Assembly: GCA_930367215.1 (NCBI GenBank)
Contig: OV884059.1
Coordinates: 71,085,393-71,149,392 of the forward strand
Source: Pollenia angustigena
Lineage: Eukaryota > Arthropoda > Insecta > Diptera > Polleniidae
DNA: 64,000 nt
Direction: 5' to 3'
In this document: positions 3,426 to 58,190 of the stretch, one piece after another
Layout of the letters: every line of letters begins with the position of its first letter
Numbering within the stretch: the stretch's first letter is position 1
Program-made: the position numbers and the translations under genes
Notes under the pieces: generated by a model
What the model saw: only the letters and a program-made list of their open reading frames with translations
Databases searched by the model: none
What the model was told of the DNA's origin: nothing

Positions 3426-3435
3426 GTGCTAAATT

Positions 3436-3592
3436 CCCATTCCATACTATTGATAAAATGAAATTTATTATTGATGGGAGAAGCTAATCCTATGCGCATT
3501 TCACTGGTTGCTTAGGCCAGATCATTAGGAAACTCCATCCAAAGATTTTTGAAAAACTAAAGATATTATACAAATAAAACTGTTAAGCGAAT
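3436..3592 (-). repeat. Dispersed hammerhead-bearing repeat, copy R1 (split by a later insertion)
   Basis: On the minus strand it carries the conserved CTGGCCTAAGCAACCAGTG and GAAATGCGCATAG block, but the first core box reads CTAATGA instead of CTGATGA. The copy resumes at about 6917-6953 after the TIR element 3595-6913, which is therefore a younger insertion. Confidence 0.7.
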
Positions 3593-3834
3593 AACAGCCG
3601 TATTCATAAACATTTTAAACATAATTTCAAATCTGTTTTAAGCATTAATCGTTAAAATTGTATTCATAAGCGAATATTACCTTAAATATCCTATTTTAAA
3701 CCTAAGCAAATTTTAAAATTGGTTCCACCCTTGTTTAAAACTATTTTAAAATTACATTTTTGCTGTGTGTTTATGGTCATTTTGAACATTTTTGCGAGAA
3801 ATTTTCAGGCAATATATTATTATGTATTTATACA

Positions 3835-17060: not shown

Positions 17061-17111
17061 TTTTTTAGCTTAAAAATATCTAATTTTTTTTATAACAATT
17101 GTGATTTTTCA

Positions 17112-17425
17112 AAGTTATTTTTGGGAATACAAAATTTATTATTTATTAGATTTCTGTATGACGTGCTTTATTCCCAATTTTTCATATTTGATAAATACAC
17201 TGAAATTTATTGTTGAGAGAAAGCCAGCTTCTGAGAGCATTTCGCTGGTTGCTTAGGCCAGATCATCAGGAAAACTTTTCCAAAGATTTTAGAAAAGCTT
17301 AAAATATAATATTTATTTGTATAATACTTTTAGCTTTTCTTAAACCTTAAAATCCTTAGAGGAATAAGAATTATAAACACTCAAAGTCTTACTTGTAACA
17401 ATATCAAAACTTTTTTTTTGACTTT
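17112..17425 (-). repeat. Dispersed hammerhead-bearing repeat, copy R2
   Basis: Minus-strand copy with an intact CTGATGA box (complement of 17263-17269) and GAAA (complement of 17240-17243), and stem II arms CTGG/CCAG. The stem III block reads ATGCTCTCA instead of ATGCGCATA, so the closing pair next to the cleavage site is lost. The left edge is set by similarity to R3 and is approximate. Confidence 0.75.
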
Positions 17426-20345: not shown

Positions 20346-21059
20346 AGTGATTATCCAAAAAAAAAATTAAAATTATTGTATATTAGTTTTTATTAATATA
20401 CACACTTATTAGGGTGCTTCAAAATCGTCAACTCTTCAAGGACTGACAATATCAAAGCCTAAACAAAAACAACAACAATAAACAGTGAGTTTATCTTTTC
20501 TAACAGTCCCGACCACAATTGGTTGATTTTTTGTCAACTCTAAATGTAGTTGTAAGTGGGTAAAGAAATTATTTAATTTTTGAGAACCTAATACCCAATT
20601 TGCAGGATAGTATTTAAATCAATATTAAGTTAATTTTCATAACAAACTTAAATCGTACTTAAAACAGATTGGTTTTTTTTTAGTTTTATTTGAAATGTCT
20701 TATTTAATTAAGATAAAAGTATGGTAGCACTACTAAATACAAAAAAAAAAATATTAAAAAGTGTATTTATTTACAAGGTGGTCTGAAAAAACAGCTGAGT
20801 GTTAATGCTTTGCCTGTTGTTATTGTATTGTTGTGAGATTGAGGCCACCTTGCTTAAATATTACAATGTAAACTTAAGTTGAAATTAAGTGTACCACATC
20901 GGTGACTTAAGTTTCACTTAAGTTTTTAGTGAAGAAGAGAATTTTGTATTTAAAACGATTTTAAAAATAAATGTGTTTTAATATCAAACCTGAAAATTGG
21001 CCATAAGTCTGACTTGCAATATATTCATTTTTTGCAAAAGAATAAGCGCGCAAAGCTTA
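20346..21059. other. Intergenic stretch
   Basis: No gene seen. A short inverted repeat around CAAGGTGGTCTG (20775) and GGCCACCTTG (20843), and several ACTTAAGTTT-like words, are the only structure. Confidence 0.35.
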
Positions 21060-27192: not shown

Positions 27193-27699
27193 AGCCTGGT
27201 ACTCTGTTCAACATTTCACGTGAAATGCTGTCAAAATGCATATGAAAAAAACTTGTGCGGAATATCTATGAAATAATGTTGATTGAGTTGTACTCTGTTT
27301 ATTTTGTGAAAAAGTTCCGAAATGTTTCTGGCAACATTTTTTTACAACTGCGAAATAATGTAAGCTACCTTTATTTCACGTGGAATTTTAAGCAAAAGCA
27401 AAAAAGTATGAACTTAATATTAAATAAGAAATAAAAAATTAAAATAACACAACCGGTAACAGTTTTTTATCCATATTTACTTTCTTTTTTATAAAATTTT
27501 TTATTAAAAAAAATAATTTTAGTAAAATACATGTGGCGTTTGTTTACATACACGAAACAATGTGGCATACTTTAAAGGAATAAAAACGTCAAATTGTACA
27601 AACTTGCAAGATTGGTAACATTGATAAATGCCAAAATTTTCGTGTGGAATAATCAATGTTGCTCAACATTTTTCACAAATTTGAACAGAGTACTAGGCT
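27193..27699. mobile_element. TIR element with TTA duplication
   Basis: AGCCTGGTACTCTGTTCAA and (inverted) AGCCTAGTACTCTGTTCAA pair, with TTA on both sides (27190-27192, 27700-27702). The interior has mirrored TTTCACGTG/ACGTGGAAT words. A partial second copy in inverse orientation begins at 27828. Confidence 0.8.
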
Positions 27700-27930
27700 T
27701 TAGTTTTTACAATTTGTATCGCAAATTTGTGTAGAGCAACATGTTTAATATATGTTTGCAACATGCTGCTTTACACAAATTTGCGATAAAAAATGTCAAC
27801 TGAATGCAAACTAAAACTAATGGCTAAAGCCTAGTACTCTGTTCGAACCTGCGAAAAATGTTGAGCAACATTGATTATTTCACACGAAAATTTTGTCATG
27901 TATCAATGTTATCTATCCTGCAAGTATGCA
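27604..27930. repeat. About 330-bp imperfect palindrome
   Basis: The right half of 27193-27699 and the partial inverted copy at 27828-27930 form outer arms (AATGTTGAGCAACATTGATT-like, AGAGTACTAGGCTTTAG). An inner hairpin (27703-27816) has arms TATCGCAAATTTGTGTA / TACACAAATTTGCGATA. The DNA or its transcript could fold into a long cruciform or hairpin. Confidence 0.75.
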
Positions 27931-36695: not shown

Positions 36696-37520
36696 TTAGC
36701 ACTTTTAGTGCTAGATTTTGCATATTTATACCCACACCACAATAGTGGAGAGGGTATTATGCATTTGTGCTGATGTGTGTAACGCCTTAAAATATTGGTC
36801 CTAGACCCACCTTAAAGTATACCGATCGACTCAGAATCACTTTCTGAATCGTACTAACGATGTCCGTCCGGCTGGCTGGATGTCCATGTAACCTTGTGCG
36901 CAAAGTACAGCTCGCAATTTTGGAGATAATTTGATAAAATTTAGGACATAGGTTCTTATTGACACATGGACCAAGCCTATTGAAAATGGGCCAAATCGTG
37001 GAATCACGAGGGAAGATAGGGTGAAATTTCTTCCTCTCAGAAACTATCAAACCGATTTTAATGAAATTTAAAACTTACATAGAACCATATCTTCATGGAC
37101 ACAAAAGGGATGTAGTTTTTAAAAAATAGGACCACGAGGGGAGATAGGGCCAATTTCTGCCTCTTAAACCGATTTTTATGAAATTCAAAACATAGATATT
37201 TCCATATCTATATGGACACATTAGCTATACAGTTTTTCAAATATAGGACCACAAGGGGAAGTAGGGGGCAATTTCTGCCCCTCACAAACTTTTAACCCGA
37301 TTTTAATGAGTTTTATAAACATAGATAAATCCATATTTATATGGACATATAAGCATGATGTGTTTTTTAATACTGTGGTGTAGGGTATCATATGGTCGGG
37401 CTTGACCGACTATACTTTCTTACTTGTTTTTTCTGATTTAGCGTTTAGAATTTCAAAAAAGTGCTAAGTGCTAGTTTAGCACATTTTTATAATTATTTAG
37501 CACTTTTTTTTTGATCCCAA
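36683..37520. mobile_element. Possible hAT left end with a fly-type repeat inserted
   Basis: CAGGCTTGCCAGTTTAGCAC at 36683 looks like a hAT end with TTTAGCAC subterminal words that resume after 37430 (GTGCTAGTTTAGCAC). Between them (about 36726-37425) lies a repeat with ends CCACACCACAATAGTGG... and ...CACTGTGGTGTAGGG-like sequence. Internally it has a roughly 100-bp unit (GGACCACGAGGGGAGATAGGG, ATGAAATTTAAAAC) repeated three to four times. A related inverted copy is at 57785-58190. No right hAT end found. Confidence 0.4.
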
Positions 37521-38945: not shown

Positions 38946-39175
38946 CAGGGTTGTCAGATGTGGCGATTTCTCGCCAAACGTGGCTATTTTCAAACTTAAA
39001 TGGCGACCCAATTTTAGATTTGGCGACATGGCGATTTTTTGCCGATATTTTAAAATAGTTGGCGATTTTATTGACGCTGTCCAACTGAGTGGCGGCTGGG
39101 TCGTATTGTTCGGTTTTATCGCGGCAGTAACGTTAAGGTGCGAGTAGCCGATTTAAAAACGCAAAGCGGAGTAAT
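38946..39175 (+). mobile_element. Left end of a hAT element, family of 2484 and 54955
   Basis: CAGGGTTGTCAGATGTGGCG followed by ATTTCTCGCCAAACGTGGC matches the left ends at 2484 and 54955. The right end is absent; a GC-richer retroelement segment begins at about 39175. Confidence 0.7.
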
Positions 39176-42421: not shown

Positions 42422-44053
42422 TTGGATTTTAAGGAAATCGTAATGGAACGTGATCCATTACTTTCCCAGTCTGGAGGACGTCCTCCTAATATGTCTAAGG
42501 GAGCTGTTTCAAAACAAAAGACTTTGGTAATTAATAAAAATCTTGCTGGTTCCCAAGCAGGGGCACAAGTTTGTAATACAGCAAACGATGGTTTAAAAGC
42601 ATCAGATGTTGGTAAAAACTCCGAGCTAGGGAAGCACTTGCTTAACGCAGTGATGGCACAGCCATCAACGTCTATTCAATTAAAGGAGAATTCGCAAGAG
42701 TCAATGCAAAATAAAAACATTAAAATTTTGGAAAATATACAAATTCCTGATTTGCAAGTTGAAAAAGAAGCTGAAAACTTAATGGATCATGAAGCCTGTT
42801 CAATTTCTTCAATGGAAGATGATTTCAAAATGGCCAAGAACAAAAAAAGAACATACCAAGGTGACGTAAAAATTGATTTGTCAAAATGTAATTTTAAGAA
42901 GTTAGATAAGTTAGCAAATAATGTAAACCGCACGAATAAATTTTCACTTTTAGGAGATTTAGTTTTAGAGGCTGAAGAGCCAATTGATAACACAAATTCA
43001 AAACAAAATAACTCCCAAGCATCTGTAAAGACCAGGAATTCTTATTGTCCTCCAATATTTTTGGAAAATGTAAATGTAAAATCCTTGATTGACCAACTTA
43101 ATTCCAAAAATGTTGAGTTTAAAATAAAAAACCAGTCAAAATTTAGAAGTAAATTGTTTTTGAAAGATTCTTCTGCACATTCGGAAATGATGCAGTTGCT
43201 AAAGGAAAGGGAAATATCTTCTTACACATACACTCCTACGGAGTATAAGCGACAGAAAGTAGTTTGTAGAGGTCTGTATTACAAATCAGATGTTAATGAT
43301 ATTAAGTCTGAAATAGATAGAATTGTCCCAGATACTGTTGAATCAGTTTCTAAATTTTCTACTGAGTATTCTAGGAAACAGGGTATTGAAACTGGTTTGT
43401 TTTTAGTATTCCTTAAACCTAATCGTAAAGCAAGCGAGTTAATCGGCGTAAAATATATGCTTAATCAAGTTGTTTCATGGGAGCGGCCAAAGGCTAACAC
43501 TAAAGTCCCACAGTGTTGGAGGTGTCAAAAGTGGGGTCATTATTCAAGAAATTGCAGTCGTCCATTTTCTTGTGTTAAGTGCAGTGAGAAGCATGCACCA
43601 GGCGAGTGTTCCTTTGTCCAGGAAGATAATGTTTTGCCATTTTGTGTCAACTGTAATCAAAATGGACATACTTCAAATTACAGGGGTTGTCCTGTGTATA
43701 GAAACTATGTGTCATTTAGAAAAAAATCTAATCAGGACACCAAGATTAGAAAACTGTCTGCATCAAATAATGTTGCTAGAGCAATAAATCCTTCTAGTGC
43801 TGTGGTTGAAAACAGACCGTATGCTAGTTTATTTAATGTTTTGAATGACGTTCCAACTCAGACTAGGGTGGTAAAGCCTGCTTTGGTACAGGAATTTATG
43901 AAGCTTGCCAAGGCTTTATGTGCTCCGGATCCTCTAACTTTAGAGGATAAAATTAATAATTTTATGGCAAACTACAAAACAATGACTAGAGATCAGGCCA
44001 AGAAAGAATGCTTGAATTTAATTAAAGATATTCAAAATGTCTATGGTCCGTAA
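42422..44053 (+). CDS. LINE ORF1, Gag-like nucleic-acid-binding protein
   Basis: The frame is open from at least 42422 (TTG); the first ATG is 42443, and either could mark the start. The N-terminal third is polar and basic. A PRE_C2HC-like domain follows at about residues 275-360 (RQKVVCRGLYYKSDVNDIKS ... GLFLVFLKP). Then come three zinc knuckles at about residues 364-430: CWRCQKWGHYSRNC (CX2CX4HX4C), CVKCSEKHAPGEC (CX2CX3HX4C) and CVNCNQNGHTSNYRGC (CX2CX4HX6C). Proteins of this kind bind the element RNA and form the ribonucleoprotein. The frame is unbroken and its stop overlaps the ORF2 start. Confidence 0.9.
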   Translation: MDFKEIVMERDPLLSQSGGRPPNMSKGAVSKQKTLVINKNLAGSQAGAQVCNTANDGLKASDVGKNSELGKHLLNAVMAQPSTSIQLKENSQESMQNKNIKILENIQIPDLQVEKEAENLMDHEACSISSMEDDFKMAKNKKRTYQGDVKIDLSKCNFKKLDKLANNVNRTNKFSLLGDLVLEAEEPIDNTNSKQNNSQASVKTRNSYCPPIFLENVNVKSLIDQLNSKNVEFKIKNQSKFRSKLFLKDSSAHSEMMQLLKEREISSYTYTPTEYKRQKVVCRGLYYKSDVNDIKSEIDRIVPDTVESVSKFSTEYSRKQGIETGLFLVFLKPNRKASELIGVKYMLNQVVSWERPKANTKVPQCWRCQKWGHYSRNCSRPFSCVKCSEKHAPGECSFVQEDNVLPFCVNCNQNGHTSNYRGCPVYRNYVSFRKKSNQDTKIRKLSASNNVARAINPSSAVVENRPYASLFNVLNDVPTQTRVVKPALVQEFMKLAKALCAPDPLTLEDKINNFMANYKTMTRDQAKKECLNLIKDIQNVYGP

Positions 44054-46628
44054 TTTTTTAAATTTAATGACATTTAATGTTGGTTCTCTTGTCCATATTG
44101 GAAGGAGAATTGAACTGAATCGGTTACTGGATCAATTTAATGTTGATATAGCTTTTTTACAGGAAACGCATTTGACTGCGGGGGCAAATGTAAATTTTGA
44201 TAGATATATTTTTTTAAAGGATGATAGTCAATTAGGTGTTGGAATATGTATAAGGAAAACAATTTCTTTCTCCAGGGCGCATGTTCCTAATCTTTCGTTT
44301 CCAAATTTATTTGTAGAAATTAGTGTGTCGATTAATGGCAGTTTAAGGAAAATTCTTTGCGGTTCTGTTTATTTCAATTGTAACTCTAATCGTCAAAATA
44401 TCGCTGGTGGCCTTTCCTCTATTTTAAACTTTTCAAACCGTTACGATGGTTTTATATTAGGCGGTGATCTAAATGCTAAGCACATTTCTTGGGGTGATGC
44501 TATCAATAATTTTAATGGAGAAGTGCTTTCAACTTGGCTTCAGAACGAATCCATTTCTGTTACAAGGATTTGTGATTCATATCCCACTTACCCTGGTGGT
44601 TCATCTCATTTGGATCATTTTGTGGTGAGCAATGACATAGTGGATAATTTGCAACAGAATTTTAAAACATGTACTCTTCCCACCTTCTCGGATCATCTAC
44701 CATTAAGTCTTTCTATAACTTTGTTGAATTTTAATTTTATTTTAAAAACTCCTCAGCATTTTGTTTCTTATAAAGACACAAATTGGAATTCGTTTAAAAG
44801 GGATATAGTTAATGCTTTGCTGAACCACTATCCACCGAAAAATAGAAACTTATCTAATAATGAGATAGATTTTTTTATAGAGGAGTTTAGCACTTCTATT
44901 AATTTTGTTTCACAAGTACATACCAAAAAAGTGGAAGGTAAAAATCAAAAATATATTGTAACGGAAAAGGTTGGAAAGTTACTAAGAATAAAATACAATT
45001 GGCAAAGGGATTTAAAGAGAATATTTACTAGAACTTTGAACAGAAAACATCCTGAGTATTTGCTTATTTCTAAGCAAATTGATCTAATAAAAATTTTGAT
45101 AAAGGAACAGATTGAAATAGAACAGGCAGATTTATTTAATGCCAAACTAAAGGAAATTAAACCTGGTCCATGGGCTAATAAACAGATTTTTAAAATTATT
45201 GGAAACAAGAGTCGTCCTTTAATAAAGGAGGTTTCTGAAAATGGTGTAAACATTGATCAGTTAGATGATAAATTAAATGTTTTTAAGAATCATTTTATAT
45301 CTGTTTATCGAGCTTCGCCTCCAAATAGAGATATTTCAGAGATAAATGGTACAATAAATAATACAATTTTTAATACTCCAGATTGTATTCCATTTAGTGA
45401 TGAAACGACATCACTGAATAACAGAAACGACTCCAAATTAATTAGTATCGATACCCTTTTAAACACCTCGAAATTAATAAATAACAAAAAGTCTTGTGGA
45501 TTAGACAATATATCGAACTTCTTGATTAGAAAATTTCCTACTAAGGCTTTTGAATATTTGACAATATTATTCAACAATTGTTTGAATAATTGCTATTTCC
45601 CACTTGATTGGAAAGTTGCGAAGATTATTATTTAAATCCCGAAAGAGAAAGGTAATTCTGACATAAACAATTTTAGACCAATTTCGCTACTCTCAAATCT
45701 AGGAAAGTTATTTGAAAGAATTATCAGAGAGAAAATGGATTTAAGTTTGGATAGTGCATACATTCCTCAGAGTCAATTTGGGTTTAAGAGGGGTAGTTCC
45801 ACCGTTCATGCGCTATTGAAATTTCATAACGATGTAGTCCAAAATTTAAGAAAAGGCCAATGTACTGTTGCAGTCTCTCTTGACATCGAAAAAGCTTTTG
45901 ATAAGGCTTATCATGACGGTATATTATACAAAATGATAAACATTGGCTTTGGGTCTTCAATAATTAAGCTCTTTCGAAGCTTTTTCGATGACAGGAGATT
46001 TTGCGTGCAAATTGATAATGAGTGTTCATCACAGGGTGAGGTCCTTTGCGGTGTTCCACAGGGCTCTGTATTGGCACCACATTTGTATAATATTTTTATT
46101 AATGATTTTCCTCATGAATATAATAACTCCATGGCTATACTTTATGCCGACGATTCGCTTCTTTATGCTCACGACGAGTCTCCGCTGGTTGCGCTCCAAA
46201 ATGTTTCATCGCACCTTAAACATGTCAATGAATTTTATTCTCATTGGGGAATAAAAATTAACGCTTCAAAGAGTAATGCAATTTGTTTACGTAATGCTTC
46301 TGGAAAGTGTAAATACACTGTTGTTCCAGAGAGCAAAAATTTAAAACTATTTCTAAATGGTACTGAAATTAAATTTAAGGACAGTATAAAATACCTTGGA
46401 GTCAACTTCAATAAGCTTTTAAAATTTAATAATCACGTTTCTTATAATTTAGCGAAGGCTAATCGGGTAAAAGGGGCATTTGCAAGGCTTTTTAATAGTA
46501 AGTTTTTACCAATAAAGACAAAACTACTTTTGTACAAAGTAAGTATAAGATCAATAATTCTCTATGCTTTTCCGATATGGTTTAGTAAGACGCATATACT
46601 CATATGTATACAATTGTTATTAAAATAA
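44037..46628 (+). pseudogene. LINE ORF2, endonuclease plus reverse transcriptase, one in-frame stop and short C terminus
   Basis: ATG at 44037 overlaps the ORF1 end by 17 nt in another frame. The APE-type endonuclease motifs are all visible: MTFNVGSL, FLQETHL, LGGDLNAKHISWGD, SHLDHFVVSND and FSDHLPLSL. A single TAA at 45633-45635 interrupts the frame just before the RT (next residues PKEKGNSDINNFRPISLLSN). The frame continues unchanged with SLDIEKAFDKAYHDGILYKM, CGVPQGSVLAPHLYNIFIND and the catalytic YADD. The RT thumb is cut short: the frame ends soon after YAFPIWFSKTH, so the usual C-terminal region is missing. No RNase H seen. Confidence 0.9.
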
Positions 46629-46745
46629 TACTCTATAGTTTTAAGTTATCTAAAAATCTTATGTTCGCAAACCTTGTACATATAATGAAACTCAATAAAG
46701 TTAACTAACTAACTAACTAACAGTTATTAAAAAGTAAAAGCCTAA

Positions 46746-49474: not shown

Positions 49475-49955
49475 AACCCTGCAAATAAAATTGGACCACC
49501 TGACCCATTTTGATAAAATGGACTACTCCATGGACTAGTCCGATGTAATGCAAGCATGGACCATGCCATTGTTAAAAAGTGTTTGTAGTGAGACGACATG
49601 TCTTCGTTTTTTAACGACATGCTTTCGTGTTTAAACGACTTCAAAACTAATCCTCTTGAGTATACCATGGAATAGTTTTAAAACTACTCCTTACTGGTCC
49701 AAAGGTGGGTTATATACCATGGAGTAGTTTTAAAACTACTCCTTACTGGTCCAAAGGTGGGTTATATACCATGGAGTAGTTTTAAAACTACTCCTTAGTG
49801 GTCCAAAGGTGGGTTATATGGTCCTCTCCTAGGACATCGTAATGTTAAATAGACCAGGTTTTTTCCATACGTTTGGGTTACTTGTGGACTAGTCCTGGTC
49901 CCTTGTGGACTACTCTTTACACGCGTGTTTGGACTGGTCCTATTATTTGCAGGGA
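49475..49955. mobile_element. TIR-like repeat of the GGACTAGTCC family, copy 2
   Basis: CCCTGCAAATAAAATTGGAC and (inverted) CCCTGCAAATAATAGGACCA pair. It shares internal TCCTAGGACATCGTAATGTT with 38142-38668. No clear TSD. It contains the 52-bp tandem array at 49664-49819. Confidence 0.65.
49664..49819. repeat. Tandem repeat, three units of 52 bp
   Basis: Each unit begins ACCATGG and contains a palindrome centred on AGTTTTAAAACT (22 bp in units 2 and 3, with arms GGAGTAGTTTT) followed by CTTACTGGTCCAAAGGTGGG. Unit starts are 49664, 49716 and 49768; differences are few. Confidence 0.92.
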
Positions 49956-50276
49956 ATGTATTCTTGTTATTGTTGTTTTTATTGTTGTTAATTTGGAAAA
50001 TGCGTCTCATCGAGTGGTTTATTGTTGTTGTTAATGTAAACAAAAGTATAAGAATGTGTTCTTTTGAATTTACTCAGTTGTGTTATATTGCGTATGCAAC
50101 AAAAATGCAAATAAAGCACTTTCAATAAAAAACGAATAAATGCAAAAATAAAATGTGTACGAAAGGATGTAAAAATTACCAACGTTGAACTTTGTGTTGC
50201 AAGCAAAGAATGAATGTAAATTTTAGCGTATGAATAAATCAAGAAAAATAGTGATTTTGAGGTTCTCTGATACATA

Positions 50277-51912
50277 CACTCCACTTCACATGAATAGGTG
50301 CAGTGTTTTAGCAATCAACTTAAGCTTTCTGCTCTCAAGATAATTCATGGAGAGGATTATGTTGTACTTTTTATTAAAGGTTTAACAATTGAGAAAAAGA
50401 GTGTAAACAAAGAAAAGTCGAAAAAGTACCGTAAGATTCAATGTGAGCTTCATTTCATAATATGTGATTAAAAATGCTAATTATTTTTGCGTCAGTTGAA
50501 TAGGTGCTTATTGAAAAAAAGCGAAAAACGGTAAAAAAAAAACTATAAAAAGACACGAAAACAACAAAGTTTTGTAAATTAGTTTTATTTTCTATTAATT
50601 TTTTAATAATGTGTACTTCCGCCTTTCGACAAAATTATCTCATAAATTCTATTTGGAAGAGAGTTATACAATTGCGATAAATGTTGTAGCGAAATTTGCG
50701 ACCACGCCGATTTTATTGCAGCAATTAAAGATTCTCGGTCATCAAATTGCTGTCCAGACTCATACACTTTCCTCGACAACCATCCCCACACGTTTTCAAT
50801 TATATTTAAGTCCGGGGAGTATGGTGGCCATGGCAGCAATTCAACATTTTGCTCGCTTATCCACGTTTTAATAATCCTTGCGGTGTGTATAGGAGCATTA
50901 TCCTGTTGGAAAGTCCATGGGATGGGTCCAAACAAGTCTTGAAATTTTGGAAACGCTGTTTGCAGAATAGATTTATAAGAATTTGCTGTAATTTTCGTGG
51001 TTTGAAATTCCAAGTCTATGACTCCATAGTACCTACTCGACTATGGCGACGGGCTAAAAAACGTTCTTCCTTCCTCAAATCATGAAAGTAGTAGTTAAAA
51101 CCATCGGGTCCATCAAAATGGAACTTTTTTTCATCTGAGAACACTACTTTATTCCACTCACTCTTCCAAGTCATGTGTTCTTTGCAAAAATTCAAACGTA
51201 ATTCCTTACGTTGCTGGTGTAATGGTGGTTTTTTCTGCAATTTAATTCGTTTTAAATGTTCAGCTGAATTAATTATTCTTCTAACTGAAGAAACACTAGC
51301 ATTGGAACCACTTTTTGCTTTGATTTTCGCAGCAGAGTCACTCGAATTGGAAGCTATTCTTATAATATGTCGCCTTTCTGTAGCTGTTGTGGCCATTGTT
51401 TGCCTTCCTTTCATGTTTTTGCCATATGTTTCTTTATTCCTTAAGTAATTCCACACAACGTTACCACTTTTATTAATTTTTTTGGAAATTTCACGGCCGG
51501 AGAGACCTTGATCCTCATAGGCATCGATTTTTGCCTTCTCTTCGACCGTTAATGATTTACCACCGCCCATTTCCAATTAAAACCGATCAAAATTAATTTT
51601 TGTTGTTGGTTTTAAAAAAATGCTAAGCTATTTTGTAGTTCAAATTTACAGAAATGACCATTCAATGACTTTTAAACGGCTGCACCTATTGAACTGACGC
51701 AAAAATAATAAGCATTTTTAATCACATATTATAAAATGAAGCTCACATTGAATCTTACGGTACTTTTTCGACTTTTCTTTGTTTACACTATTTTTCTCAA
51801 TTGTTAAACCTTTAATAAAAAGTACAACATAATCCTCTCCATGAATTATCTTGAGAGCATAAAGCTTAAGTTGATTGCTAAAACACTGCACCTATTCATG
51901 TGAAGTGGAGTG
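50277..51912 (-). mobile_element. Tc1-like element with about 230-bp inverted repeats
   Basis: CACTCCACTTCACATGAATA at the left is exactly inverted at the right end (51893-51912), and a TA flanks both ends (50275-50276, 51913-51914). The TIRs extend for about 230 bp on each side with few differences. The minus strand between them encodes a broken transposase. Confidence 0.93.
50603..51576 (-). pseudogene. Tc1-like transposase, one frameshift/deletion
   Basis: The N-terminal part (51016-51576, 186 residues from MEMGGGKSLTVEEK) has two helix-turn-helix regions (GLSGREISKKINKSGNVVWN and the SSVRRIINSAEH block) and the first catalytic Asp in VVFSDEKKFHFDGPDG. The frame breaks near RRHSRVGTMES; the GGGSVMVWG-type stretch usual there is absent. 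The C-terminal part (50603-51013) has the second Asp in TFQQDNAPIHTA and the Glu in YSPDLNIIENVWG, with DD34E spacing. Both catalytic halves are otherwise well preserved. Confidence 0.93.
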
Positions 51913-52023
51913 TACCCCTGAATATCGTATAACCAACTCTGGCTCCTTACAATGCAACGAAATCAAGTTGACTGTTGTACGTATGCGTTTACACCATTCA
52001 CTGCAGGTGGAAGAATTAACACG

Positions 52024-53960: not shown

Positions 53961-54420
53961 ATGTTATATCCTTCATTTTGTAAGTTCAAGCTTTGTAAAC
54001 ATCCCCAAAGTTTTTAGTGTACAAATTTTGTGGTTGGTTTTTGAAATACTAGAAGATTACAATTACTTCTGGAGGAAACATATCGTTGGCGCGATCACAG
54101 CACTCCTCAAACGATTTGCGTGGCCGACCAAGTGAACTGGTAAAACATTCAGCCTCAGTAAACTTAATTGTAAATGTGCCTTCAAGCCAATTTGCATTCT
54201 GTTTTTCAAATCGCGACTTCGTACGATTAGAATCCTGCCATCTTTGTTGAAGTTAGAGTAAAAGCTTTTATATATTGTATCCAAAATTCCACATGCTCTA
54301 GTATCGTTTTACTCAACGTACAATTGTTGCAAAAACTGTAAATAACTTTGATAATATACTTGCATGTGCCCGTGCAGAAAACTGAATTGCCAAATTGGTT
54401 TTTTTTTTTGTTGTTTTCTT
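53961..54420. other. Intergenic stretch
   Basis: No gene recognised. The minus-strand segment around 54063-54284 contains FLDLKNRMQIGLK-like residues of unknown meaning. Confidence 0.35.
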
Positions 54421-54836
54421 GCGAAGACAATAGAATGGAACAATTTGTTTTATAATTTTGTTTTTTCTTTTTACCCACTACAATTCGAGTCGGAAAGAAC
54501 CCAACCAATTGTAGGGGGATGTAAGAAAAGATAAACTCACTGTTTATTTTTTTGGTGTTTTGTTTAAGCTTTGATATTGTTACAAGTAAGATTTTGAGTG
54601 TTTAAAATTCTTATTCGCTTTATGGTTTTATTTGTATAATATTTTTAGCTTTTCTTAAATCTTTGGAAAAGGTTTCCTGATGATCTGGCCTAAGCAACCA
54701 GTGAAATGCGCATAGAGGCTAGCTTTCCCTCAACAATAAATTTCAGTGTATTTATCAAATATGAAAAATTGGGAATTTAGCACGTCATACAAAAATCTTA
54801 ATAGTAAATTTTGTATTCCCGTAAATAACTTTGATA
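54421..54836 (+). repeat. About 416-bp direct repeat with hammerhead motif, copy R3
   Basis: It starts GCGAAGACAATAGAATGG and ends CCCGTAAATAACTTTGATA. The whole stretch recurs at 57074-57488 with few changes, like a pair of terminal repeats around about 2.2 kb (which contains the younger hAT 54955-56404). The hammerhead-like core is at 54665-54728. Confidence 0.88.
54665..54728 (+). ncRNA. Hammerhead ribozyme-like motif (type I, minimal stem III)
   Basis: Core box CTGATGA is at 54677-54683. Stem II arms are CTGG (54685-54688) and CCAG (54698-54701) with a 9-nt loop. Core box GAAA is at 54703-54706. Stem III is the two pairs A106/U113 and U107/A112 (last three digits of the coordinate) closed by GCGC. 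The cleavage trinucleotide is ATA, so the predicted cut is after 54714. Stem I: GGTTTC (54671-54676) pairs with GAGGCT (54715-54720), then after an internal loop GGAAA (54665-54669) pairs with TTTCC (54724-54728). All universally required core bases are present. A U/U mismatch sits at the base of stem II and stem III is very short, so activity may be weak or need a dimer. Confidence 0.65.
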
Positions 54837-54954
54837 CTGTTTTAATTTTGTTCTGTCTTTGTCAAACTCCAGAAGCTTCGAGCATAAAACCCCATGAGAA
54901 ATAGAAAAACTTTCCATCATCGTAAAACTCTTGGGCCTTAATTTCAGTTATAAC

Positions 54955-56404
54955 CAGGGTTGTCAGATGTGGCGATTTCTCGCCAAACGTGGCGATTTTC
55001 TACCATGTTTGGCGACCTAATTTTTGATTTGGCGACATTGCGATTTTTTGGCGATTTTTACAATAGTTAAAATCGCCAACTGGCTATTTTTGATGACCTA
55101 TGAATTTGTTTTGAAATTCGTTAAATTCAATACTTAGAAATAATATTATTTTAATTCTCGTATTTTTATGAATGAAATTTTAGGCAATCATATGTATGAT
55201 AGGTATTTGAAGGTATGTTCAAATGGCTGATGAAGTTAATGAAAATCTTCTAGAAAAGTGTTTCTTATACATATATAAAATTGCTCTTGAAAAAATCAAT
55301 AAATAGAATTCCTTAAAACACTAATATATTTTAAGTCTATAAACATTTTCACATTATACTTATATGTACATATGTGGCAATTTATTATCACAGATAAAAT
55401 ATGTCGTTGTTAGTGATATTTTAAAGATTTTTATGAATCCTATCATACCTTTGGACGTTTATGAAACACAATGGAAAAAATAAGCGTTGGTTAATTGGAA
55501 ACATAGCTAAAAAAGTTTAGGCCAACATTTAAAAGCTACAAGGATACGGCAGGTACGTAAAATTTTAAGGACTTTACTTTGGCTGTCCTTAATATGTGGT
55601 TATTACAACTAGTAATGCCTGTGAAACTATGAACTCCACTTAAACTCGCCTTCGAATTAGAATGCAATACGAGCTTCTAGACTCGTTATTAGGAGTTATA
55701 CAGGCATGCTCTGTAAATCAAAAGATTTCAAATCACAATTGTGATTAATGGGTGTTTTGAAAACCACAAAAGTTTTAACTTAGTTAAAAACGGTGGAAAC
55801 AAATAAGCAAGTAAAAAAAATCGGCGGCCACTTAGCTGACTGGTTTAAAATCACAATTATGAAAAAAGCTTTTTGTCCTGAACACCTTTTTTGTGATTTC
55901 AATTCACTTTCACAAAAAGTGATTTTCAGAACATGCCTGATAAGTTATATGAATGGGAATAGTACATGTTGCACTTCTTTTGTACTTTCGTTGAATAAAT
56001 GTAATACCCTCACAATGTATTCCAAATTAGAAGAAAAATAGCGAGTCTTGACGGCGAAGCGTTTTAGATATATAATAAAACTGCAACTATTGTATATATG
56101 TAGTGCATTTCTAATGTTTGTTAAGTACTAGCCGCATAGTAAACATCGTACCTTTTTTGTGTTCACTAACTATTTTTATTTCGCTCTAAATAAAAATTAA
56201 GCAAAATATATATTATGGCGACTTTTTTTGAATTTTTGGCGTATTTAAGCGATACGGAACTAATTTGGTTTTTAGGATTTATAAAAAATATTTTTAATAA
56301 TTTAAAAAATATGTATTTTATTGTCAAAAACTTCTAAACAAAGGCTTTGGCGATTTTTGATATTGAATTTGGCGAAAAAGGTCAAAATCAATCTGACAAT
56401 CCTG
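54955..56404. mobile_element. Non-autonomous hAT element, 1450 bp
   Basis: The ends CAGGGTTGTCAGAT and (inverted) CAGGATTGTCAGAT are flanked by GTTATAAC (54947-54954 and 56405-56412), a perfect TSD. GGCGATTTCTCGCC and TTTGGCGA words crowd the ends. Same family as 2484-3425. No transposase. Confidence 0.92.
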
Positions 56405-56412
56405 GTTATAAC

Positions 56413-56962
56413 TAAAAAAACCGGAGAAAAATCGGTTGTACTTTTCGCGTTCGTCAGCAATTGTCGAATGACAAAAATCGACAATGAACACATATAAATA
56501 CTACAATATTTTACTGACGGCTACGTTCCAAAACATGAGCACTTATAAATGTGGGTGGAATTTCTGTAAAAAAATCATACAGGTAGCCAACGGAAAACCC
56601 AAATAATTAAAAAAGTGCACTTTCCTTTTTTCCTTTTAATTGTCCACGCACATTTATAACCGCTTATTAGTTTACTACCGCAATCATAAAAATCAAATAA
56701 CCTTTGTTTATTACATTTTTTTTTAATTCTGAGAATCGTAAAAAAAGTCATAAATGTTTTTCCAAAGAATTTTGTGCATATCTCGAGCAAATTTTTGAAA
56801 TTCATACCTTCACTTAATTGTGAATAAAAGCGAAACGCGTTCATCGATTTTCATGATTTATGTCCCATTTTGTTCACAGGTTATGCGACTTTATGTGAAA
56901 GTAATAGGACTTGAAACGTTTTACCGTTTTGGATTTTTTATTAATTAAAAAAAAAAATTTAT
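56413..56962. other. Stretch between hAT and inverted repeat copy R4
   Basis: Internal part of the region bounded by the 54421 and 57074 direct repeats. No RT or other domain recognised in either strand. Confidence 0.4.
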
Positions 56963-57073
56963 CAAGATTTTTGTATGACGTGCTAAATTCCCAATTTTTC
57001 ATATTTGATAAATACACTGATATTTATTGTTGAGGGAAAGCTAGCTTCTATGCGCATTTCACCGGTTGCTTAG
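56963..57073 (-). repeat. Hammerhead-bearing repeat, partial inverted copy R4
   Basis: Minus-strand copy containing CCTAAGCAACCGGTGAAATG and CGCATAGAAGCTAGCTTTCC, that is the second half of stem II, GAAA, stem III and the 3' arm of stem I. The CTGATGA half is missing because the copy stops at the junction with R5 (57073/57074). Confidence 0.75.
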
Positions 57074-57488
57074 GCGAAGACAATAGAATGAAACAATTTG
57101 TTTTTTAATTTTGTTTTTTCTTTTTACCCACTTACAACTACAATTCAAGTCGGAAAGAACCCAACCAATTTTAGGGGGATGTAAGAAAAGATAAACTCAC
57201 TGTTTATTGTTGGTGTTTTGTTTAAGCTTTGATATTGTTACAAGTAAGATTTTGAGTGTTTAAAATTCTTATTCGCTTTATGGTTTTATTTGTATAATAT
57301 TTTTAGCTTTTCTAAAATCTTTGGAAAAGGTTTCCTGATGATCTGGCCTAAGCAACCAGTGAAATGCGAAATAGCTTTCCCTCAACAATAAATTTCAGTG
57401 TATTTATCAAATATGAAAAATTGGGAATTTAGCACGTCATACAAAAATCTTGATAATAAATTTTATATTCCCGTAAATAACTTTGATA
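57074..57488 (+). repeat. About 415-bp direct repeat with damaged hammerhead motif, copy R5
   Basis: It matches 54421-54836. CTGATGA (57335-57341), stem II and GAAA (57361-57364) are intact. The stretch after GAAATGCG is shortened (AAATAGCTTTCC), which removes the cleavage site and the core-proximal arm of stem I. Confidence 0.85.
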
Positions 57489-57784
57489 AAAAAAATACTA
57501 ATTTTTTAGGCAAAAAAAATCTTCATACATTTATTTATAACTGCAAAACTGTTGCTTATGTAGCGAAACGTTATATAAACAGAAGGAATTAATTGCAATT
57601 CTTGATTTTTCTAAATTTGTTTCAGCATAATCCGACTAGTAGTTCTCGAGTTACATATGTTTAACAAAAGGTCCTTATCAGAATTGAGTCCCGAATCAAT
57701 CAGCTGAAAAATGTTGTACTATGTAATGCAACAAATTGAGAGGTGGCACCTGGTGGCACTTGAAATTGATTAAATATGCAACAA

Positions 57785-58190
57785 GTAAGAAAGTATAGTC
57801 GGTCAAGCCCGACCATACGATACCCTACACCACAGTATTTAAAAACACATCATGCTTATGTATCCATATAAATATCGATTTATCTATGTTTATAAACTTC
57901 ATGAAAATCGGTTTGAAAGTTTGTGAGAGGCAAAAATTGCCCCCTACCTCCCCTTGTGGTCCTATTTTTGAAAAACTGTATAGCTAATGTGTCCCTATAG
58001 ATATGGATCTATCTATGTTTTAAATTTCATTAAAATCGGTTTGAGAGGCAGAAATTGCCCCTATCACCCCTCGTGGCTCGATTTTTTTAAAAATTTATAC
58101 ATTTTGTGTTCATATAGATATGGTTCTATATATGTTTTAAATTTCATTGAAATCGGTTTGATAGTTTCTGAGAGGAAGAAATTTCCCCCC
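57785..58190 (-). repeat. Fly-type dispersed repeat with internal tandem units, inverted relative to 36726-37425
   Basis: It starts GAAAGTATAGTCGGTCAAGC and CCTACACCACAG, the inverse of the right end at about 37380-37425. A unit of about 100 bp with ATCTATGTTTTAAATTTCAT and GAGAGGCAGAAATTGCCCC is repeated three to four times. No coding sequence. Confidence 0.7.

Follow-up and report, generated by a model that had tools for sequence, protein, structure and literature searches.

According to PMC7229834 and PMC7761336, metazoan non-LTR retrozymes, those of insects included, carry type I hammerhead ribozymes in low-GC tandem units of 150-450 bp, and either LINEs or Penelope-like elements have been proposed as their movers. 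In PMC7229834 the Penelope-like elements are called "strong candidates", because the two kinds have type I hammerheads in common, both form tandem copies and they occur together. The same source describes an axolotl retrozyme ribozyme that has a U.U mismatch at the foot of stem II and a stem III of 2 bp with a tetraloop, and of which 22% was cleaved in one hour. For PAc, a Penelope-like element of lizards, it has been established in vitro that reverse transcription starts at two adjacent internal sites on the RNA (PMC11167929). Starts are commonest in a stem loop at nt 111-118 of the ORF and the hammerhead cut is at 26, so that the two are 85-92 nt apart; the 111-118 site is one of the two starts, and the main text of that paper leaves open which. 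The stretch between the two starts corresponds to an optional tail of 30-40 bp in genomic copies. Both DNA strands are cut, preferentially at AT-rich ATT sites, and both are extended, and mutation of the PAc ribozyme left insertion in vitro unaffected (PMC11167929).

As a kind, hammerhead retrozymes are already known. We consider it likely that a repeat present in the 64,000-nucleotide stretch of Pollenia angustigena DNA analysed here (the window) is a non-autonomous retrozyme of the metazoan type, which is predicted to cut itself by means of a type I hammerhead and would be copied, as circles or multimers, by a Penelope-like enzyme. The hammerhead-like motif, which was recognised from the sequence, by a descriptor scan and from pairing across copies, spans positions 54665-54728 of the plus strand, as do all elements given next. 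Stem I is composed of a distal helix of 5 bp, GGAAA/UUUCC (54665-54669 with 54724-54728), and a proximal helix of 6 bp, GGUUUC/GAGGCU (54671-54676 with 54715-54720; three of the pairs are G.U), which are separated by an internal loop with A54670 opposite AGC (54721-54723). The core box CUGAUGA (54677-54683) is followed by stem II, CUGG/CCAG (54685-54688 with 54698-54701), which has a 9-nt loop; together with a U.U mismatch at its foot (54684/54702) this element spans 54684-54702. Then come the second core box, GAAA (54703-54706), and a minimal stem III formed by the palindrome AUGCGCAU (54706-54713; 2 bp and GCGC). The bond between A54714 and G54715 we take to be the cleavage site, an assignment based on the sequence and on general hammerhead rules. 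The features of a type I hammerhead are present: CUGANGA and GAAA in this order, three stems, NUH before the cut, and an open end at stem I. The motif is confirmed as a sequence-only reading had described it: both core boxes, their order and spacing, stem II, the tiny stem III and the ATA at the cleavage position read as claimed, and the closure of stem I by helices of 6 and 5 pairs was borne out. By eye we also noted that the AUG within CUGAUGA opens a frame of 11 codons (54680-54715), which ends with UAG at 54713-54715, across the predicted cut.

The chance level of the motif was estimated with a descriptor looser than the description of the sequence-only reading (stem II of at least 4 bp with a foot mismatch allowed, a stem III loop of 3-8, stem I of at least 4 bp). 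The real window contained one match, namely this motif, and 23 matches were found in 8,162 dinucleotide-shuffled windows, or about 0.003 per window. Searches with Rfam were negative: no family reached its gathering threshold over the window, no hammerhead family was detected at E<=10 in a stretch of 601 bp, and none was found on L031, a copy in which the foot of stem II is G-C. A genome search with RF00163 returned no hammerhead; it was run without a positive control and weighs neither way. Nor did Rfam at E<=1 give a match on the hammerheads that adjoin GIY-YIG elements in the same genome (see below). The sequence-only reading had held that it would be refuted if covariance models failed to match and cleavage failed in vitro. 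The first of these, no match, is what we found for the window, the 601 bp and L031, but it decides little because Rfam likewise passes over the hammerheads that adjoin GIY-YIG elements. The absence of an Rfam match would fit the view that the hammerhead likeness is due to chance. The rarity of matches in shuffled windows, the conservation and pairing across subfamilies, and the position of the motif in tandem retroelement-like units, all detailed below, make that view barely credible.

The sequence-only reading had placed the motif in a dispersed repeat, and this turned out to be right. Besides the insert that carries the motif, the window contains five further copies or fragments, and a core pattern of 35 nt, five of its letters being variable, had 6,821 exact matches in the 1.37 Gb genome (3,430 and 3,391 on the two strands), against 0 for the control, which was the same pattern reversed. 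The core pattern had 0 matches in viral contigs. When the genome was queried with 121 bp, 40 matches were listed out of 2,094 first-look candidates. An unselected sample of 20 10-kb pieces taken at round positions (C1, C2, C4 and C5) included four with matches, which amounted to nine aligned pieces.

With a covariance model for which 16 copies had been chosen by hand, 98 matches were obtained in 84 sources, which are not independent because the loci were picked by likeness and L005 and L006 overlap; 78 of the 98 contained the whole core by a strict pattern. In all 78 intact cores the base before the predicted cut is A. The foot of stem II, which occurs as U.U, G.U and G-C, is U.U in 65 of them, and stem III reads AUGCGCAU in 54, AUACGCAU in 19, AUGCAU in four and otherwise in one. 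A hand count of the first 100 listed cores yielded 76 of the main U.U type, eight with G-C, eight of one G.U type and eight others (4 U.C, 2 U.U and 2 G.U). Stem II is 6 bp long in the eight cores with a G-C foot, each of which is known from 35 nt.

The repeat comprises a main and a sister subfamily, which we compared by majority, using 16 sister copies (out of 41 listed matches) and five main copies. The two were identical in 117 of the 145 aligned columns. All 44 columns of the interval that opens with the 5′ strand of proximal stem I and closes one base beyond the cut were identical, as against 73 of 101 elsewhere, and an identical run this long occurred in 32 of 100,000 permutations. Stem III was shortened yet palindromic in 4 of the 16 sister copies fetched. 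In the 146-bp sister copies L074, L077, L080 and L084 it is 2 nt shorter and reads AUGCAU, that is, a 1-bp stem with a palindromic UGCA loop. Several sister copies are located near contig ends (C1:326.0-328.7 Mb and C2:265.2-265.6 Mb).

The U.U foot had been flagged as a warning by the sequence-only reading, and the mismatch is real. It raises the possibility that the motif derives from an active hammerhead that is now catalytically dead in the main subfamily, and that the repeat spread via uncut multimers of tandem arrays. The prevalence of U.U among intact cores is in line with this, as is the preference of the window copy for another fold: its unconstrained minimum-energy structure is a different one (-13.2 kcal/mol, compared with -10.9 kcal/mol when stems I and II were forced, a difference of 2.3 kcal/mol). 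However, the U.U foot is common to both subfamilies and is located inside the 44-nt core, their longest identical run. In addition, 8 of the first 100 listed cores combine a G-C foot with a 6-bp stem II, and the axolotl ribozyme with U.U is active, as reported in PMC7229834. We therefore regard loss of catalysis as unlikely, and retain the self-cutting retrozyme as the preferred reading. The presence of the U.U foot, in both subfamilies, within the longest identical run of the aligned stretch also means that these copies bear on why a hammerhead with such a foot is kept.

Pairing was evaluated on 16 distinct hand-chosen copies, with controls in which the partners were slid by 1-3 columns and with 500 shuffles. 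In register 89.0% of the cells were paired, against 34.6-52.3% after sliding, and none of the 500 shuffles reached 89.0%. Five cells were changed on both sides, a number attained by 0 of the 500 shuffles, and the covariation score was attained by 4 of 500. The number of pairs changed on both sides (2) and that of further pair types (10) were not above the shuffles, 229 and 439 of 500 of which reached them, respectively, and sliding by +3 reproduced both figures for two-sided change, 2 pairs and 5 cells. At columns 6/63 of distal stem I, A-U is replaced by U-A in 4 of the 16 copies, which probably reflects one event. Compensatory change is thin, being one event, in stem I. When 16 copies were folded with stems I and II forced, 5 were at their minimum energy, which speaks for the hammerhead. 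Taken together, the intact core in most model matches, its conservation between subfamilies and the pairing in register support the type I hammerhead that the sequence-only reading had proposed, and the results as a whole likewise support its interpretation in terms of retrozymes and Penelope-like elements.

The repeat unit is 488 bp long with a GC content of 30.5%, and we number it from the predicted cut (u1 = 54715). Its longest ATG frame is 35 aa (unit of L001), and the unit is without coding capacity. ARAGORN identified no tRNA gene in L001, L023 and L035, a search which decayed tRNA likeness would escape, and on this result a tRNA-derived SINE was set aside. The insert with the motif (54338-54836, plus strand) contains 1.03 units, from u107 to u122. 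On the same strand the window includes the two positions at which most 3′ ends of the family are found (see below), 3′ site 1 at 54799-54812 (u85-98) and 3′ site 2 at 54833-54841 (u119-127), the insert itself ending at the latter. The further copies comprise an inverted pair, with a minus-strand piece ending at u98 (56954-57075) and a plus-strand piece ending at u123, in which the ribozyme is broken by 6 missing nt (57074-57489); an old minus-strand copy, about 80% identical, in which the bases of the cut site read CTCA (17106-17412); an old minus-strand copy with letters of the sister subfamily and the core CTAATGA (3426-3594); and a minus-strand fragment of the unit without the ribozyme (20446-20564).

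Several other features of the window were recorded. Another dispersed repeat (TGGCGATTTCTCGCCAAACG) occupies 54951-55068, just downstream of the insert, and recurs at 38946-39060 and 2480-2608. At 50275-51914, inverted ends of 233 bp, 97.9% alike, flank two frames that by eye resemble pieces of a mariner/Tc1 transposase. The region 42422-46630 is LINE-like by eye, with a 543-aa frame containing CCHC knuckles followed by an endonuclease/RT frame that is interrupted near 45.6 kb. Inverted copies that are 90.7% identical, each with a 117-bp tandem repeat, are located at 37019-37428 and 57780-58189; a 52-bp unit, judged by eye to be partly palindromic, is present in 3.1 copies with 98% matches at 49661-49819; and a 330-bp foldback, 76% self-complementary, is found at 27599-27928.

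Head-to-tail runs of the repeat reach 3.55 units (L001) and 14 fragments exceed 1.05 units, although not every insert is tandem. Insert ends were surveyed in 46 fragments from L001-L048 and the window; L002 was left out, as were the duplicated places in L005 and L006. The 3′ ends of 38 of the 46 are in two windows, 21 of them at u85-98 and 17, the insert with the motif included, at u119-127, the numbers being distances in nt beyond the predicted cut; these windows were set after looking at the ends. The eight other 3′ ends are at 66, 69, 69, 74, 80, 112, 354 and 362. For most copies the criterion of choice was similarity to approximately u414-u46, so that some 3′ ends are excluded and the cut is necessarily spanned. 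The window and the 20 unselected pieces together supply 13 fragments, of which 11 extend over the cut and 7 have their 3′ end in one of the two 3′ windows; the six with a 3′ end elsewhere belong to the short or more divergent fragments, and the aligner may have trimmed their ends. The 5′ ends, by contrast with the clustered 3′ ends, are scattered: of 45, the inner joints of inverted pairs included, two fall in the two windows and one is within 5 nt of the cut. Because 11 of the 13 fragments span the cut and 1 of the 45 5′ ends is within 5 nt of it, the RNA that was copied was probably continuous at the predicted cut, being either circular or an uncut multimer. With its head-to-tail units, clustered 3′ ends and scattered 5′ ends, the comparison with retrozymes and Penelope-like elements that the sequence-only reading had drawn is right and can be taken further than was done there.

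Four inverted pairs were found (L011, L013, L024 and window positions 56954-57489), in each of which the 5′ ends of the two pieces meet and have 2-3 bases in common. In three of the four, each outer end falls at one of the two 3′ sites; those of L013 are u121 and u80. Duplications of 8-12 bp in the flanks were legible by eye in L004, L017, L022 and L035; over a set of 31 they are weak, the mean longest match being 7.3 compared with 6.4 for mispaired flanks. No regular A-rich or microsatellite tail was seen at the inserts by eye. A hairpin is predicted around 3′ site 1 that is no more stable than in shuffles (z -0.12 to 0.15).

Tandem units and a high copy number would also be expected of a Helitron/DINE-1-like element, or of a satellite spread by DNA exchange, in which the motif would be a passenger. 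Elements of the Helitron/DINE-1 type have a fixed 5′ end, however, and here the 45 5′ ends are scattered, the 3′ ends cluster at two internal sites and some flanks are duplicated over 8-12 bp, which makes this origin very improbable and leaves retrotransposition of a retrozyme as the reading that we follow.

The same genome contains candidates for the enzyme. A genome search gave 19 GIY-YIG hits among 150 that were scored out of 493 candidates, and Pfam confirms two. The best hit is probably a cellular gene, putatively SLX1. In each of three stretches that were fetched, a minimal hammerhead was recognised by eye roughly 0.5 kb beyond the point where the GIY-YIG hit begins, with the pattern CCC CUGAAGA N GUSAA...UUSAC (G/A)AAA CGUY GGG; one of the three has AAAA instead of GAAA. 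Genome-wide this pattern had 352 matches and its control 0. On C1, for which the list is complete, five of the eight GIY-YIG hits other than the best are followed by the pattern, on their own strand and at no more than 1.1 kb, one has it only upstream and two lack it. The hit whose frame is the longest (778 aa including stops) lies between two copies of the pattern that are separated by 2,864 bp. Judged from the GIY-YIG hits and the adjoining minimal hammerheads, we take these elements to be Penelope-like. The covariance model of the repeat misses their minimal hammerheads. A comparison of the tail of the repeat with three GIY-YIG elements revealed no convincing shared sequence, only T-rich stretches, and a likeness between the retrozyme tail and L087, TTTAG(G)CAC, was rejected as too short to count. 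A scan of the loci for short GIY-YIG/RT motifs gave two unconvincing matches only, both in L041. The repeat was also considered as an autonomous Penelope-like element and rejected as such, since it is without an ORF having RT and GIY-YIG domains; yet it appears to insert like one.

Truncation at the 5′ end is typical of LINEs. The scattered 5′ ends of the repeat fit LINEs as well, LINE-like frames are present in the window (by eye), the repeat has no tail in common with the GIY-YIG elements, and LINEs are among the candidates named in PMC7229834, all of which would agree with insertion of the retrozyme by a LINE-type rather than a Penelope-like enzyme. It is in other respects that the inserts resemble Penelope-like elements, namely in the two 3′ sites beyond the hammerhead, with some 33 nt between them, in the inverted pairs and in the lack of a regular A-rich or microsatellite tail, and an internal start that is non-homologous to the cut DNA has been called unique to Penelope-like elements (PMC11167929). 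A LINE-type enzyme is on balance an improbable mover.

For a retrozyme moved by a Penelope-like enzyme we propose the following life cycle. Transcripts of tandem units would be made and then cut by the type I hammerhead after 54714. The cut monomers may be ligated into a 488-nt circle, or the RNA may be left multimeric. A Penelope-like enzyme would start reverse transcription internally, at u85-98 or u119-127, and the circle would be copied round and round into new genomic sites. We tentatively go one step further, with confidence slightly short of even, and suggest that a self-cutting RNA circle parasitises the Penelope-like enzyme by carrying the paired internal start sites of that enzyme, and that the approximately 6,800 copies with an intact core are the record of this. 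If this is true, a direct footprint of the machinery that moves animal retrozymes would for the first time be visible in a genome, and it would suggest that per insertion one circle can be copied several times round, from both DNA strands at once.

In several respects the repeat agrees with systems described before. Like the retrozymes of coral, mussel and axolotl in PMC7229834, it combines a type I hammerhead, the stem III of which is tiny, with short low-GC tandem units, lacks LTRs and is dispersed in many copies. One axolotl form in that source shares with it the U.U foot and the 2-bp stem III with a tetraloop, and the other has a 1-bp stem III with a palindromic tetraloop, as in L074. It differs from the retrozymes described there in its unit of 488 bp, just above 150-450 bp, and in the grouping of its 3′ ends at two sites, which recalls Penelope-like elements. 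Two insect repeats can be likened to it by description. PMC2837043 describes pDo500 of Dolichopoda cave crickets, a repeat of about 500 bp with a hammerhead and with compensatory changes at 10.1/11.1; pDo500 is satellite DNA, whereas the repeat described here consists of short dispersed inserts with truncated 5′ ends. For Aedes aegypti, interspersed repeats with a hammerhead have been reported, for which a dimer form was proposed and no cleavage of the tested Aedes RNA was detected (PMC3088659). From Penelope-like elements the repeat differs in having no ORF, and its hammerhead is fuller than those, of minimal form, that accompany the GIY-YIG elements in the same genome. In the open literature we found no report of Penelope-type start sites or of a double 3′ end in a retrozyme. 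PMC7229834 does not settle by which enzyme animal retrozymes are spread, and the junctions described here add positional evidence. As in PAc, two internal 3′ sites are present past the hammerhead, at a comparable position, with an optional tail of about 33 nt, use of both strands, and tandem copies (PMC11167929). The spacing of the two 3′ sites is of the kind observed with the purified Penelope-like enzyme, and the question of which enzyme moves animal retrozymes therefore becomes a simple in vitro test.
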